The translations under genes were made by a program, and so were the position numbers. From Capsulimonas corticalis (GTDB taxonomy: Bacteria > Armatimonadota > Armatimonadia > Armatimonadales > Capsulimonadaceae), in contig NZ_AP025739.1 of NCBI RefSeq assembly GCF_003574315.2, positions 4,092,001-4,156,000 of the forward strand: 64,000 nucleotides of DNA, given 5' to 3'. Positions 17,521-50,642 of the stretch are shown here, one piece after another. A model generated the notes under the pieces. The model did no database searches. It was not told where the DNA came from and worked only from the letters and a program-made list of their open reading frames with translations. The number at the start of each line of letters is the position of its first letter. Within the stretch, counting starts at the first letter, position 1.

Positions 17521-18528
17521 ATGGACAGTGTTGACCGTGATCAGTGGCTAGGCGAAGGCCGCCGCGTGCTGGAAGAGGAAGCGCAGGCGCTCCGTTCGCT
17601 CGCCGCGCGCCTGGATTCGCAATCCTGGGCGGCGGCGGTGACGCTTCTTTTGGAGGCGAAGGGCCGCGTTGTCGTGACGGGGATGGGCAAGAGCGGCGCC
17701 GTCGGCCACAAGCTTGCCGGGACACTGGCGAGCACGGGAACGCCCGCGCTGTTTTTGCATCCCGCTGAGGCGGTGCATGGCGATCTCGGGATGCTGGCCC
17801 CCGCCGATGTGGTGATCGCTCTCTCCTATAGCGGCGAGACCGACGAGATTCGCGCCATTCTTCCCACCATCAACCGGCTCAACGTTCCCATCGTCGCCCT
17901 GACTTCCAACAAGCGTTCGACTCTCGCGCAGAGCAGCGCCGTGGTGCTGGACGTCGCGATCGGTCAGGAGGCGTGTCCCATGAACCTGGCCCCGACCACC
18001 AGCACGACGGCGATGATCGCGATGGGCGACGCGCTGGCGCTGACCGTGATGGGCGCGCGCGGATTCGACGCCGAAGACTACGCCCGCCTGCACCCCGCCG
18101 GCTCGCTCGGACGCCGGCTGACCCTGCGCGTGGCCGACGTGATGCGCACGGGCGAAAACCTCGCCATCGTTTCCCAGGACGCCGTGATGTTCGACGCGGT
18201 CTTCGCGATCACGAACGCGCACGCCGGCGCCGCCATCGTGGTCGACGGCGATGGGCGTCTCACGGGCCTCGTGACCGACGGCGATATCCGCCGCCACTTG
18301 CTGGACGGTCAGGATCTCCTCCAGCGCTCCGTGTTTTCCGTCATGAACCGCAAGCCCGGAACCGTGGCTTCGGACATCCTCGCGATTGAGGGCTTGCAGC
18401 GTCTTGACGACTTCCACCCCGATCCCGGCAGCAAGGCCGGCGAAGCGCCCGTCGTGGACGCCGAAGGCCGCCCGGTCGGAATGCTGATGCTCAAAGATCT
18501 GGTCAAAGCGGGGATCGTGCTGGAATGA
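17521..18528 (+). CDS. kdsD: D-arabinose 5-phosphate isomerase
   Basis: 335 residues, the usual length for KdsD/KpsF/GutQ. The SIS domain (about 35-180) contains GMGKSGAVGHKLAGTLASTG, VIALSYSGETDE and CPMNLAPTTSTTAMIAMGDA; two CBS domains follow (about 205-330: ADVMRTGENLAIV... and SVMNRKPGTVAS...). It converts ribulose 5-phosphate to arabinose 5-phosphate, the first step to Kdo for lipopolysaccharide. kdsC lies downstream, separated by an inserted palindromic element; the kdsA and kdsB steps are not in this window. Presence of the pair argues for an outer membrane. Confidence 0.95.
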   Translation: MDSVDRDQWLGEGRRVLEEEAQALRSLAARLDSQSWAAAVTLLLEAKGRVVVTGMGKSGAVGHKLAGTLASTGTPALFLHPAEAVHGDLGMLAPADVVIALSYSGETDEIRAILPTINRLNVPIVALTSNKRSTLAQSSAVVLDVAIGQEACPMNLAPTTSTTAMIAMGDALALTVMGARGFDAEDYARLHPAGSLGRRLTLRVADVMRTGENLAIVSQDAVMFDAVFAITNAHAGAAIVVDGDGRLTGLVTDGDIRRHLLDGQDLLQRSVFSVMNRKPGTVASDILAIEGLQRLDDFHPDPGSKAGEAPVVDAEGRPVGMLMLKDLVKAGIVLE

Positions 18529-18536
18529 AAGATGTG
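18525..18536 (+). repeat. Left copy of 12-bp direct duplication
   Basis: ATGAAAGATGTG, identical to 18707-18718, the first four codons of kdsC. It overlaps the kdsD stop codon as ATGA. It reads as a target-site duplication around the element that lies between the two copies. Confidence 0.65.
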
Positions 18537-18706
18537 GCGTTTGCCCCGGATATAAAATCCGGATCTGGGAAGGCTTCGCCTAACCGTCCGTGCCGGACGG
18601 ACAAAATAGGCTGTTGTCGAAATGCTAATTTGTTTGTCCGGCACGGACAATTAGTCGCGAAGCGACTTCCCAGACCCGGATTTTATATCCGGGGGCAGGC
18701 GAGTGT
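18537..18706. mobile_element. Palindromic MITE-like element inserted between kdsD and kdsC
   Basis: 170 bp with long imperfect terminal inverted repeats: the left arm at 18544-18572 (CCCCGGATATAAAATCCGG then ATCTGGGAAG) matches the right arm at 18666-18694 in inverted orientation. Inside, further inverted segments (CCGTCCGTGCCGGACGGACA and TGTCCGGCACGGACA) extend the fold. It encodes no protein. It is flanked by a 12-bp direct duplication of the start of kdsC, as expected for a transposed non-autonomous element. No transposase is nearby. Confidence 0.65.
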
Positions 18707-19243
18707 ATGAAAGATGTGACCTGGATCGTGCTCGATGTGGACGGCACATTGACGGATGGCAAAATTATCTACGATGACAAAGGCGGCGAGACGAAGGCGT
18801 TCCATGTGGCCGACGGTCTGGGGATCGTGATGGCGCAGTCGATGGGCTTGCGGATCGCCATTCTGTCGGGGCGGAGCAGCACGGCGGTCGCGCGCCGCAT
18901 GGCGGAGCTTAAGGTTACGCAGATCGTTCAAGGCGCGGGGGATAAGGCCGCGAAGATGCGCGCGTTGATGCGCGAACACAATCTTATGCCCGAGCAAATC
19001 GCCTATGTCGGCGACGATTTGAATGATTTACCCGCGTTCGATGTCGCCGGCGTGCGCATCGCCGTCGCGAACGCCGACGCGTTGCTGCTGGCGCGCGCGG
19101 ATTATGTTACGCCGCGCGCCGGCGGCGCGGGCGCCGTGCGCGACGCGATTGACGAAATTTTGCGTCGCCAGGGACGCTATGACGACGCCGTCGCGCAATA
19201 CCTGCGGACCTCGGCGGCGAACGCCGCCACGCCATCCCAATGA
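18707..19243 (+). CDS. kdsC: 3-deoxy-D-manno-octulosonate 8-phosphate phosphatase
   Basis: 178 residues, a normal capless HAD (C0) phosphatase of the KdsC family. Motifs: LDVDGTLTDGKI (nucleophile and acid/base Asp), AILSGRSS, and VGDDLNDLPAF. It acts as a tetramer removing phosphate from Kdo-8-phosphate in lipopolysaccharide synthesis. Its first 12 bases are duplicated at the end of kdsD; without the inserted element the two genes would overlap by ATGA. It overlaps the next gene by ATGA. Confidence 0.92.
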   Translation: MKDVTWIVLDVDGTLTDGKIIYDDKGGETKAFHVADGLGIVMAQSMGLRIAILSGRSSTAVARRMAELKVTQIVQGAGDKAAKMRALMREHNLMPEQIAYVGDDLNDLPAFDVAGVRIAVANADALLLARADYVTPRAGGAGAVRDAIDEILRRQGRYDDAVAQYLRTSAANAATPSQ

Positions 19244-21946: not shown

Positions 21947-22000
21947 CGCAAAAGCTTGGCGATGTCGTGCATTGATGTGTTCGCTTGGTAATCACAGAGC

Positions 22001-22174
22001 GGCCGGCGGTTGAAACCGCGCCTGCAAGCGCGCAGAAGTCCGCCTGTGCGGACTGCATTGTCCTTGCCGATACCGCCGAGGGCGGGGCGTTTCGTGAGGC
22101 GGACACGCCGGCGATTTTGTAGTCCACGCAGGTGGACTTCTGCATACATGCAGGCGCGGTTTCAACTGCCGGCC
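22001..22174. repeat. Palindromic element, family C copy 1
   Basis: 174 bp with 26-bp terminal inverted repeats differing at one base (ends GGCCGGCGGTTGAAACCGCG at 22001 and its complement ending at 22174). Nested inside is an inverted AGTCC(A/G)CC...GGTGGACT block. A second copy lies at 50481-50642. Non-coding; it lies between the two membrane glycosyltransferase genes. Confidence 0.8.
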
Positions 22175-22261
22175 ACTCTTGCTTGCCGTCGTCGTTGCGT
22201 TTATTATTTGGGGACCTTGCGTTGCGTCATTTACGCCAAGGGAATATTTGGTGACGAAATC

Positions 22262-33992: not shown

Positions 33993-34262
33993 ACCGGCGC
34001 TTCGCGCGCTCCCGTATCCCCCAGGCGCTTAGCGCCACCCCTCCCGGGTGACCTATCCCCGGCCTTCGGCCGCCCCCTCCCTTGCAAACCCGCCCCGGCG
34101 CTTCGCGCCACCCCTCCCGCCGACGGGAAGGGTAATTTCAGAGCGTGTCATCGCAGGCGGCTTTCGTCAGAGGCAATCCTACAAACCCTTCCCGTCGCGG
34201 GAGGGGTGGCGCGAAGCGCGGGGGTGGGTTTGCAAGGGAGCGCGCGAAGCGCTGGGTGAGGG
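33993..34262. repeat. Palindromic element, family B copy 1
   Basis: The core element is 34082-34234 (153 bp): inverted arms beginning TTGCAAACCC and ending GGGTTTGCAA, each with a small hairpin GGCGCTTCGCGCC and the block CCACCCCTCCCG. Partial arm copies (GGCGCTTAGCGCCACCCCTC and GGCCTTCGGCC) extend it on the left to about 33993, and a further arm remnant on the right to 34262. The central 50 bases (ATTTCAGAGCGTGT...GAGGCAATCCTAC) match copy 2 at 46031-46189. No coding potential; it fills the gap between the DUF5666-like gene and ald. Confidence 0.82.
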
Positions 34263-46003: not shown

Positions 46004-46030
46004 AGACCTATTTCCGCGTTTCGCGCGCCT

Positions 46031-46189
46031 CTGGGCAAACCCACCCCGGCCCTTCGGGCCACCCCTCCCGCCGACGGGAAGGGTGATTTCAGAGCGTGTT
46101 ATCGCAGGCGACTTTCGTACGAGGCAATCCTACAAACCCTTCCCGTCGGCGGGAGGGGTGGCCCGAAGGGCCGGGGTGGGTTTGCCCAG
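46031..46189. repeat. Palindromic element, family B copy 2
   Basis: 159 bp; the inverted arms begin CTGGGCAAACCC and end GGGTTTGCCCAG. Each arm holds a hairpin GGCCCTTCGGGCC, where copy 1 has GGCGCTTCGCGCC: the change keeps the pairing and occurs in both arms. The asymmetric core (ATTTCAGAGCGTGTTATCGC...) is nearly the same as in copy 1. Non-coding; lies between the deacetylase gene and the ilvB promoter. Confidence 0.85.
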
Positions 46190-46276
46190 GAGCGCGGCTG
46201 GGTTTGCCTGGGAGAACTCAGCCTCAGAGCCCAGAGTTGCTTTGCCAGAACTCTCAGGAAAAACTTTCGTGCGCGG

Positions 46277-48466: not shown

Positions 48467-48964
48467 ATGACGCAAACACAGCAACATACCATCAGCGTTC
48501 TCGTGGAGAACAAGCCCGGCGTCCTCGCGCGCGTCGCTCTTCTGTTTTCGCGCCGGGGCTACAACATCGAAAGCCTCGCGGTCAGCATCACGGAGAACCC
48601 GTCGATTTCGCGTATGACGGTCGTCGTCAATGGCGACGAGCAGGAAGTCGAACAGATCACCAAGCAGCTGCACAAGCTGATCGATGTCAGCAAGGTCCAG
48701 GACTATATCGACGTTCCGATCATCGCCCGCGAGCTGGCCTTGATCAAGGTGAACGCCGAGGTCAACAACCGCACGGCGATCCTGCAATTGGTGGAGATCT
48801 TCCGTGGCCGTGTCATCGATATGTCGGACAAGACGTTCGTCATTGAAGTGACGGGCGGCAACGACAAGATCGACGCCCTGGAGAAACTGCTGGAGCCGTA
48901 TGGCATCCGCGAGCTGGTCCGCACGGGCCGCATCGCGATGGCGCGCGGCGTCCGGGGTATGTAA
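48467..48964 (+). CDS. ilvN: Acetolactate synthase, regulatory small subunit
   Basis: 165 residues with the N-terminal ACT domain (HTISVLVENKPGVLARVALLFSRRGYNIESL, split over residues about 6-36) and the C-terminal ALS_ss domain. It binds valine and mediates feedback inhibition of IlvB. Also called ilvH in other genomes. A perfect hairpin follows the stop codon. Confidence 0.96.
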   Translation: MTQTQQHTISVLVENKPGVLARVALLFSRRGYNIESLAVSITENPSISRMTVVVNGDEQEVEQITKQLHKLIDVSKVQDYIDVPIIARELALIKVNAEVNNRTAILQLVEIFRGRVIDMSDKTFVIEVTGGNDKIDALEKLLEPYGIRELVRTGRIAMARGVRGM

Positions 48965-48984
48965 ATCGTTCAGCCATTTTCACT

Positions 48985-49022
48985 GGGTGGCATGCCTGCG
49001 CAGAACCGCCGGCATGCCACCC
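48985..49022. repeat. Perfect 12-bp inverted repeat after ilvN
   Basis: GGGTGGCATGCC (48985-48996) and GGCATGCCACCC (49011-49022) around a 14-base loop, no T-tract. It may stabilise the 3' end of the ilvBN part of the message or be a fragment of a repeat family. Confidence 0.65.
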
Positions 49023-49058
49023 GGGGAAATTGCCGAATAGATGTAGTCGGGAGGCCGC

Positions 49059-50480: not shown

Positions 50481-50642
50481 AGAACGGCCGGCGGTTAAAA
50501 CCGCGCCTAGAAGTGCGCCAAAGTCCACCTCCGTGGACTCAATGCCAATTTTCGGTAGTCAAGACACTCGGATTGAGGCATTTAACCTGCGCAGGCAGGT
50601 TTTGGCGCTCTTCTAGGCGCGGTTTCAACCGCCGGCCGTTCT
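50481..50642. repeat. Palindromic element, family C copy 2
   Basis: 162 bp with about 42-bp imperfect terminal inverted repeats (ends AGAACGGCCGGCGGTTAAAA and its complement GGTTTCAACCGCCGGCCGTT). An inner hairpin AGTCCACCTCCGTGGACT is shared with copy 1. It separates ilvC and leuA, 46 bases before leuA. Confidence 0.82.

Follow-up and report, generated by a model that had tools for sequence, protein, structure and literature searches.

A 170-bp insertion at the kdsD/kdsC junction of Capsulimonas corticalis is probably a REP-like doublet linked to a Y1 transposase

A 170-bp element made of two inverted, multi-hairpin arms lies between the kdsD and kdsC genes of Capsulimonas corticalis, framed by an exact 12-bp direct repeat. 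We consider it probable that the element is a non-autonomous REP doublet (REPIN-like), derived from full-length arm-tnpA-arm copies, whose Y1 (HUH) transposase fits subclass 1.2. Insertions of this kind are rare in that a sister genome reveals their exact ends, here because coding sequence lies on both sides, and this copy illustrates how insertion into a stop/start overlap can leave both genes intact. The features in the window, by which we mean the whole 64,000-nucleotide stretch of DNA that was analysed, are as follows (G001 is a genome of the same genus).

17521-18528, + strand: upstream gene with SIS and CBS domains, kdsD-type arabinose-5-phosphate isomerase; its stop TGA lies within the left 12-mer (ORF list, Pfam)
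18525-18536, + strand: left 12-bp direct repeat ATGAAAGATGTG, duplicated target (single copy in G001)
18537-18706, no strand assigned: inserted element: two inverted arms, with 7 nt beyond the left outer hairpin and 12 nt beyond the right one (sequence, fold, G001 empty site)
18544-18562, + strand: left arm, outer hairpin H1 CCCCGGATATAAAATCCGG
18571-18581, + strand: left arm, middle hairpin H2 AGGCTTCGCCT
18584-18600, + strand: left arm, inner hairpin H3 CCGTCCGTGCCGGACGG, with CTAA just before it, which fits a CNRA foot
18634-18650, - strand: right arm, inner hairpin H3 TTGTCCGTGCCGGACAA (read on the - strand), foot CTAA, unlike the left H3
18653-18667, - strand: right arm, middle hairpin H2 AGTCGCTTCGCGACT (read on the - strand), unlike the left H2
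18675-18694, - strand: right arm, outer hairpin H1
18707-18718, + strand: right 12-bp direct repeat, in which the downstream gene has its start codon (sequence, ORF list)
18707-19243, + strand: downstream gene, HAD hydrolase, kdsC-type KDO-8-P phosphatase (ORF list, Pfam)

The two copies of the 12-mer are 100% identical, are separated by 170 bp and directly abut the element edges (offset 0/0). Chance can be dismissed as the cause of such a match at the exact edges, because cross-paired flanks of different family copies share direct repeats of at most 9 bp. The TGA of the upstream ORF ends at 18528 and the ATG of the downstream ORF begins at 18707, and excising the insert together with one repeat copy yields GAATGAAAGATGTGACC. 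The orthologous junction in G001 (locus L056) is an empty site, with one related 12-mer and a plain ATGA stop/start overlap (...GTGCTGGA/ATGAGAAATGTCGCATGG); ATGA overlaps are also found at the corresponding junction in G005 and G003. The empty site therefore points to a gain of the element and 12 bp in the Capsulimonas corticalis lineage, and the insertion and its duplication are real and are most simply dated after the split from G001. An earlier, sequence-only reading of this DNA had concluded that the element arrived in one piece with a 12-bp duplication and split two ATGA-overlapping genes, so that removing it with one repeat copy would restore the overlap. This part of the reading is supported: the repeats lie exactly where it had placed them, and the empty site that it proposed to look for in relatives is present in G001, as a single 12-mer. 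The gene names kdsD and kdsC, also taken from that reading, are compatible with the Pfam domains of the two proteins (SIS+CBS upstream, HAD downstream), which indicate general families only.

The same reading had described a 170-bp palindromic element. The inserted length is right, and the insert folds far better than its shuffles (-114 kcal/mol, z = -12.8), but it is not one long palindrome: it consists of two unlike arms. The 7 nt and 12 nt beyond the outer hairpins arrived together with the element. Each arm of the family follows the order outer hairpin, CTGGGA-type linker, middle hairpin, CTAA foot and inner hairpin. Among the 74 of 76 arms in which the middle hairpin could be parsed (two were unparsed), 35 distinct versions occur, 30 of them with at least four nested pairs (1000 shuffles: mean 1.96, maximum 7), and the two arms of one copy carry differing middle hairpins in 34/36 copies. 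Individual hairpins are thus preserved and the long palindrome is not, so that each arm is a conserved unit and behaves like a REP of its own, two of them being joined as a heterodimer. A full CNRA foot precedes the inner hairpin in 34 of 78 cases; among these 78 inner hairpins, which were found in 82 arms, position -4 is C in 47 and position -1 is A in 49. This incomplete agreement counts against the REP-doublet reading, as does the fact that the left and right arms of one locus are not independent.

At the DNA level, matches to the element occur in 2/61 genomes, the own genome and that of the same genus. The 7.65-Mb own genome holds at least 98 matches at at least 39 places, a minimum obtained by scoring 40 of 58 candidates and clustering places by eye. 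Copy statistics are based on 38 copies, the own-genome ones plus three from G001, leaving out the tandem array L003 and the single arms L032, L043 and L045. None of these 38 copies was found to interrupt a convincing gene; two (L026, L029) were flagged inside ORFs, the starts of which look over-extended. The exact outer hairpin of the window copy has no other occurrence in its own genome, and the best DNA match of this copy (88%) lies in G001, so that its donor and dedicated tnpA are not pinpointed by its matches, a further point against the REP-doublet reading.

Other repeats were seen beside this family. A 30-bp tandem array of GGGAGGGCTTCGCCCTAACCGTCCGTGCCG, with about 20 copies or more, lies at C1:2349654-2350336 of the own genome (L003, L050) and is made up of the part of an arm that holds its middle and inner hairpins. 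The window holds further long inverted repeats at 46024-46196, 50481-50642, 21996-22179, 34020-34246 and 48962-49045, and the one near 34 kb bears hairpin modules of the GGCGCTTCGCGCC type, another palindromic family.

Which enzyme is associated with the arms? The own genome has five Y1_Tnp matches. One of these genes, tnpA (P0001), lies between the arms of the copy at 2171829-2172414. These arms are near-identical along 77 nt, and a TAG within one of them serves as the stop codon of tnpA. A second tnpA (2822421-2822825) adjoins the L039 copy and has inverted flanks of 91 nt; its counterpart in G001 (L122) likewise has inverted arms. P0001 scores 75.9 bits against PF01797 (cut-off 23) and passes the IS200/IS605 model NF033573 (62.3 bits, cut-off 55), while it fails REP_Tyr_transpos (24.8 against a cut-off of 80); by sequence, its closest solved structures are IS200-type transposases (E 3e-6). 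The Y1_Tnp fold match and the DHVH and YIKNQ motifs identify it as IS200/IS605-like, and its motifs DHVH, WQ and YIKNQKQHH match exactly the subclass 1.2 entry in the table of PMC6006769. P0001 is thus a Y1 (HUH) transposase that fits TnpA-Y1 subclass 1.2 by its motifs. Inspected by eye, the 47 armatimonad homologues carry DH[VI]H in 43 cases and Y---Q--HH in 37.

Homologues of tnpA are present in 25/41 genomes, and inverted arms of 23 to 107 nt flank 37 of the 47 armatimonad tnpA loci, an arm being scored where the inverted-flank score exceeds 20.5, the 99th percentile of cross-genome pairs (the maximum of this control is 85.5, and related loci inflate it). No inverted arms were found at 17 control-gene loci or at 500 random window positions. 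Six of ten Nostocales genomes have homologues, at 8 places, and inverted flanks scoring at least 20.5 occur at 4/6 parsed loci (two of the eight were unparsed). The ten armatimonad tnpA loci without clear arms and the two such parsed Nostocales loci speak against the REP-doublet reading. The armatimonad ten include L118 and L119 of the own genome, two further Y1 genes with no detectable inverted arms, one of which has subclass 1.2 motifs. Arms also recur away from tnpA in 10 of the 11 armatimonad and Nostocales genomes searched. Matches were obtained in 8/8 armatimonad genomes (G004 25, G015 6, G018 2, G014 14, G010 24, G008 4, G022 70, G034 14), frequently as close inverted pairs, and in 3/3 Nostocales genomes (17, 24 and 30), counts for which all arms served together as one query and to which those at tnpA loci contribute; the matches in G018 are just the two arms at its own tnpA.

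Is the 12-bp duplication a general property of the family? In 30-bp flanks of 37 copies (L052, at a contig edge, was excluded), the 36 other copies show direct repeats of 3-7 bp, the same as the cross-paired control, and 12 bp is found solely at the window copy. The 200-bp flanks of 35 own-genome copies likewise show no general duplication, like the control; a 12-bp match at L023 is part of a further hairpin module and has unequal offsets. At tnpA loci, direct repeats measure 3-9 bp in 34/35 (two of the 37 arm-bearing loci were left out). Repeats of 7 bp occur there at 7/35 loci, against 3.9% in the cross-genome control, and were rejected as target duplications for their inconsistent offsets. 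The remaining locus, L164 in G025, is flanked by a 17-bp exact direct repeat, unlike the other 34. The sequence-only reading had noted that 12 bp is long for common MITEs and that the mobilising enzyme may therefore be unusual. With none of the 36 other copies above control, the 12 bp are no signature of such an enzyme, and half of what that reading had named as refuting evidence, the lack of 12-bp duplications at other copies, is what we find. The available text of Nunvar 2010 (PMC2817692) states that Y1/HUH transposases make no large target duplications, which agrees with 36/37 copies and makes the window copy the exception. The duplication therefore seems peculiar to the kdsD/kdsC insertion, and as a product that Y1 transposition is not expected to yield, it weighs against the REP-doublet reading.

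Another order of events would account for this exception: the 12 bp may first have been duplicated as an in-frame tandem of kdsC codons 1-4, the Y1 element then landing exactly between the copies. A tandem of this kind, being four codons long, would probably do no harm, Y1 elements require no target duplication, and no other copy of the family has one. We nonetheless regard this scenario as rather unlikely, since it requires two events, the second at the exact junction, and the tandem form was not seen in the relatives examined at this junction.

Comparison of gaps between orthologous genes gives a wider picture of turnover. A search of G001 with gene pieces from 34 copies yielded 24 matches; 22 locus pairs were compared and 14 displayed. 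A different palindromic element occupies the same G001 gap at 6/14 sites (L033, L017, L005, L013, L029, L042), the gap is short at another six (L036, L019, L006, L034, L026, L023), one arm-tnpA locus is in common (L039) and one site (L041) is not assigned to any of these classes. In the reverse comparison, two loci were shared and two held different elements, and there was one case each of a hairpin remnant, a short gap, a partial match and a paralogous match. Palindromic elements seem to come and go readily in such gaps; at compared sites other than the coding junction of the window, the insertion points are obscured by flank divergence. The palindromic elements that G001 has at orthologous intergenic sites (L087, L090, L091, L095, L098, L106) in place of the window family are unrelated to it, for example of the CCCTCACCCCCCGGCCCC type. 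A full arm doublet in G001 stands against a lone outer hairpin in G000 (L176 versus L113), a pair that resembles an internal deletion.

The presence of other palindromes in 6/14 sister-genome gaps could mean that these gaps favour hairpins, and, with the very stable fold and the lack of copies inside convincing genes, it would suit a view in which the hairpins are not a mobile repeat but are retained for a function in the RNA between the two cistrons, as attenuator, processing site or terminator. This is improbable: the gene pair exists without the element at the G001 empty site, a promoter and terminator scan of the element found no pattern, and Rfam gives only miRNA models below gathering scores, matches that are due to the long stem. 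A later RNA role of the hairpins may nevertheless have been acquired. The least credible alternative, a classical MITE mobilised by a DDE transposase with 12-bp target duplication (elements of the IS4 kind are an example), would explain the exact duplication, the empty site and the inverted, TIR-like arms, but is largely refuted by the flank test, in which duplication length is not constant (12 bp at 1/37 copies, 0/36 others above control), and also conflicts with the Y1 enzyme between the arms and with hairpin differences in 34/36 copies, unlike TIRs read by one DDE enzyme.

How would a REP doublet have come to lie between kdsD and kdsC? The arms beside tnpA are an association in sequence, from which we infer that TnpA may mobilise them. 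TnpA would recognise the arms as single-stranded hairpins with a 5' foot and would move doublets as single-stranded DNA, by analogy with TnpA-REP and IS200/IS605 enzymes. One copy would have landed on the kdsD/kdsC ATGA overlap after the split from G001, the target 12 bp being copied by a staggered break, by a template switch in repair or replication, or by an earlier 12-bp tandem duplication. The duplication would have preserved both the kdsD stop and the kdsC start, leaving the insertion tolerable at that site. An insertion without duplication at a stop/start overlap would cost one gene its end, so that survivors would be biased toward overlap-copying events. Between the kdsD stop and the kdsC start there are now 178 bp with strong hairpins, and translation of kdsC has probably been uncoupled from kdsD. 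Tentatively, subclass 1.2, for which no substrate has been known so far, could form a further REP-mobilising lineage in Armatimonadota and Cyanobacteria, with its own format (up to three hairpins per arm, CNRA foot) and with integration able to duplicate the target, of which the 12 bp at kdsD/kdsC would be the record; target duplication is not known for Y1 enzymes.

Several known systems resemble this one in part. The PATEs of the archaeal Haloquadratum are small palindromic elements linked to IS200/IS605-type transposases. Classical IS200/IS605 elements have no terminal inverted repeats, in contrast to the inverted arms at 37/47 loci here. TIRYTs, as far as the consulted text of Di Nocera 2013 (PMC3733652) describes them, share a Y1 gene between long inverted repeats that form small dispersed families; according to the available parts of PMC6006769, most of them belong to subclass 2.1, have an HTH tail and show GGGG[AT][CG]A[CG] as the consensus of their repeats, whereas the genes here are 1.2-like. 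Class 3 TnpA-Y1, in the same parts of that paper, has atypical hairpins whose 5' foot, CnGA, resembles CNRA, a Y----Q type motif and a high repeat copy number, as here, but its motifs are NHVH, W[TA] and YV..EQ instead of DHVH, WQ and Y---Q--HH.

The closest parallel in organisation is REP/REPIN/BIME with RAYT (TnpA-REP, class 2), for which the accessible text of Nunvar 2010 (PMC2817692) likewise describes a Y1 gene with an inverted palindromic repeat on either side, numerous intergenic repeat doublets, paired changes by which palindromes are maintained, and no large target duplication. Two inverted palindromic units flank tnpA here and recur as intergenic doublets, as in class 2. The differences lie in the enzyme motif (Y---Q--HH here, not Y---NP), in the foot (CNRA here, GT[AG]G in class 2, a sequence that none of the listed feet has) and in the arms, which here are about 60 nt long with as many as three hairpins. 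Literature searches, within full text and outside subscription papers and preprints, gave no paper that combines the armatimonad phylum with 'REP-associated tyrosine transposase', and no REP partner of subclass 1.2 or armatimonad RAYTs.

With subclass 1.2 the agreement lies in the enzyme. The portions of Quentin et al. 2018 (PMC6006769) available to us describe HuH DH[IV]H, WQ, Y---Q--HH, about 150 aa and low genomic copy number, all shared by the genes here, name members mostly from Cyanobacteria and Bacteroidetes, and list neither REPs nor, in general, terminal IS200 structures; Armatimonad* has no occurrence in the text of PMC6006769. That absence of REPs is a negative survey result and not a defining feature of the subclass. 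The published lack of nearby REP-like structures does not extend to the 37/47 and 4/6 loci that have arms: unlike the subclass as published, most homologues here are flanked by inverted multi-hairpin arms that are also dispersed in the genome. These arms thus offer a probable substrate for a transposase subclass published as lacking REPs, in a repeat format amenable to in vitro tests, and would extend REP-doublet systems to the Armatimonadota.
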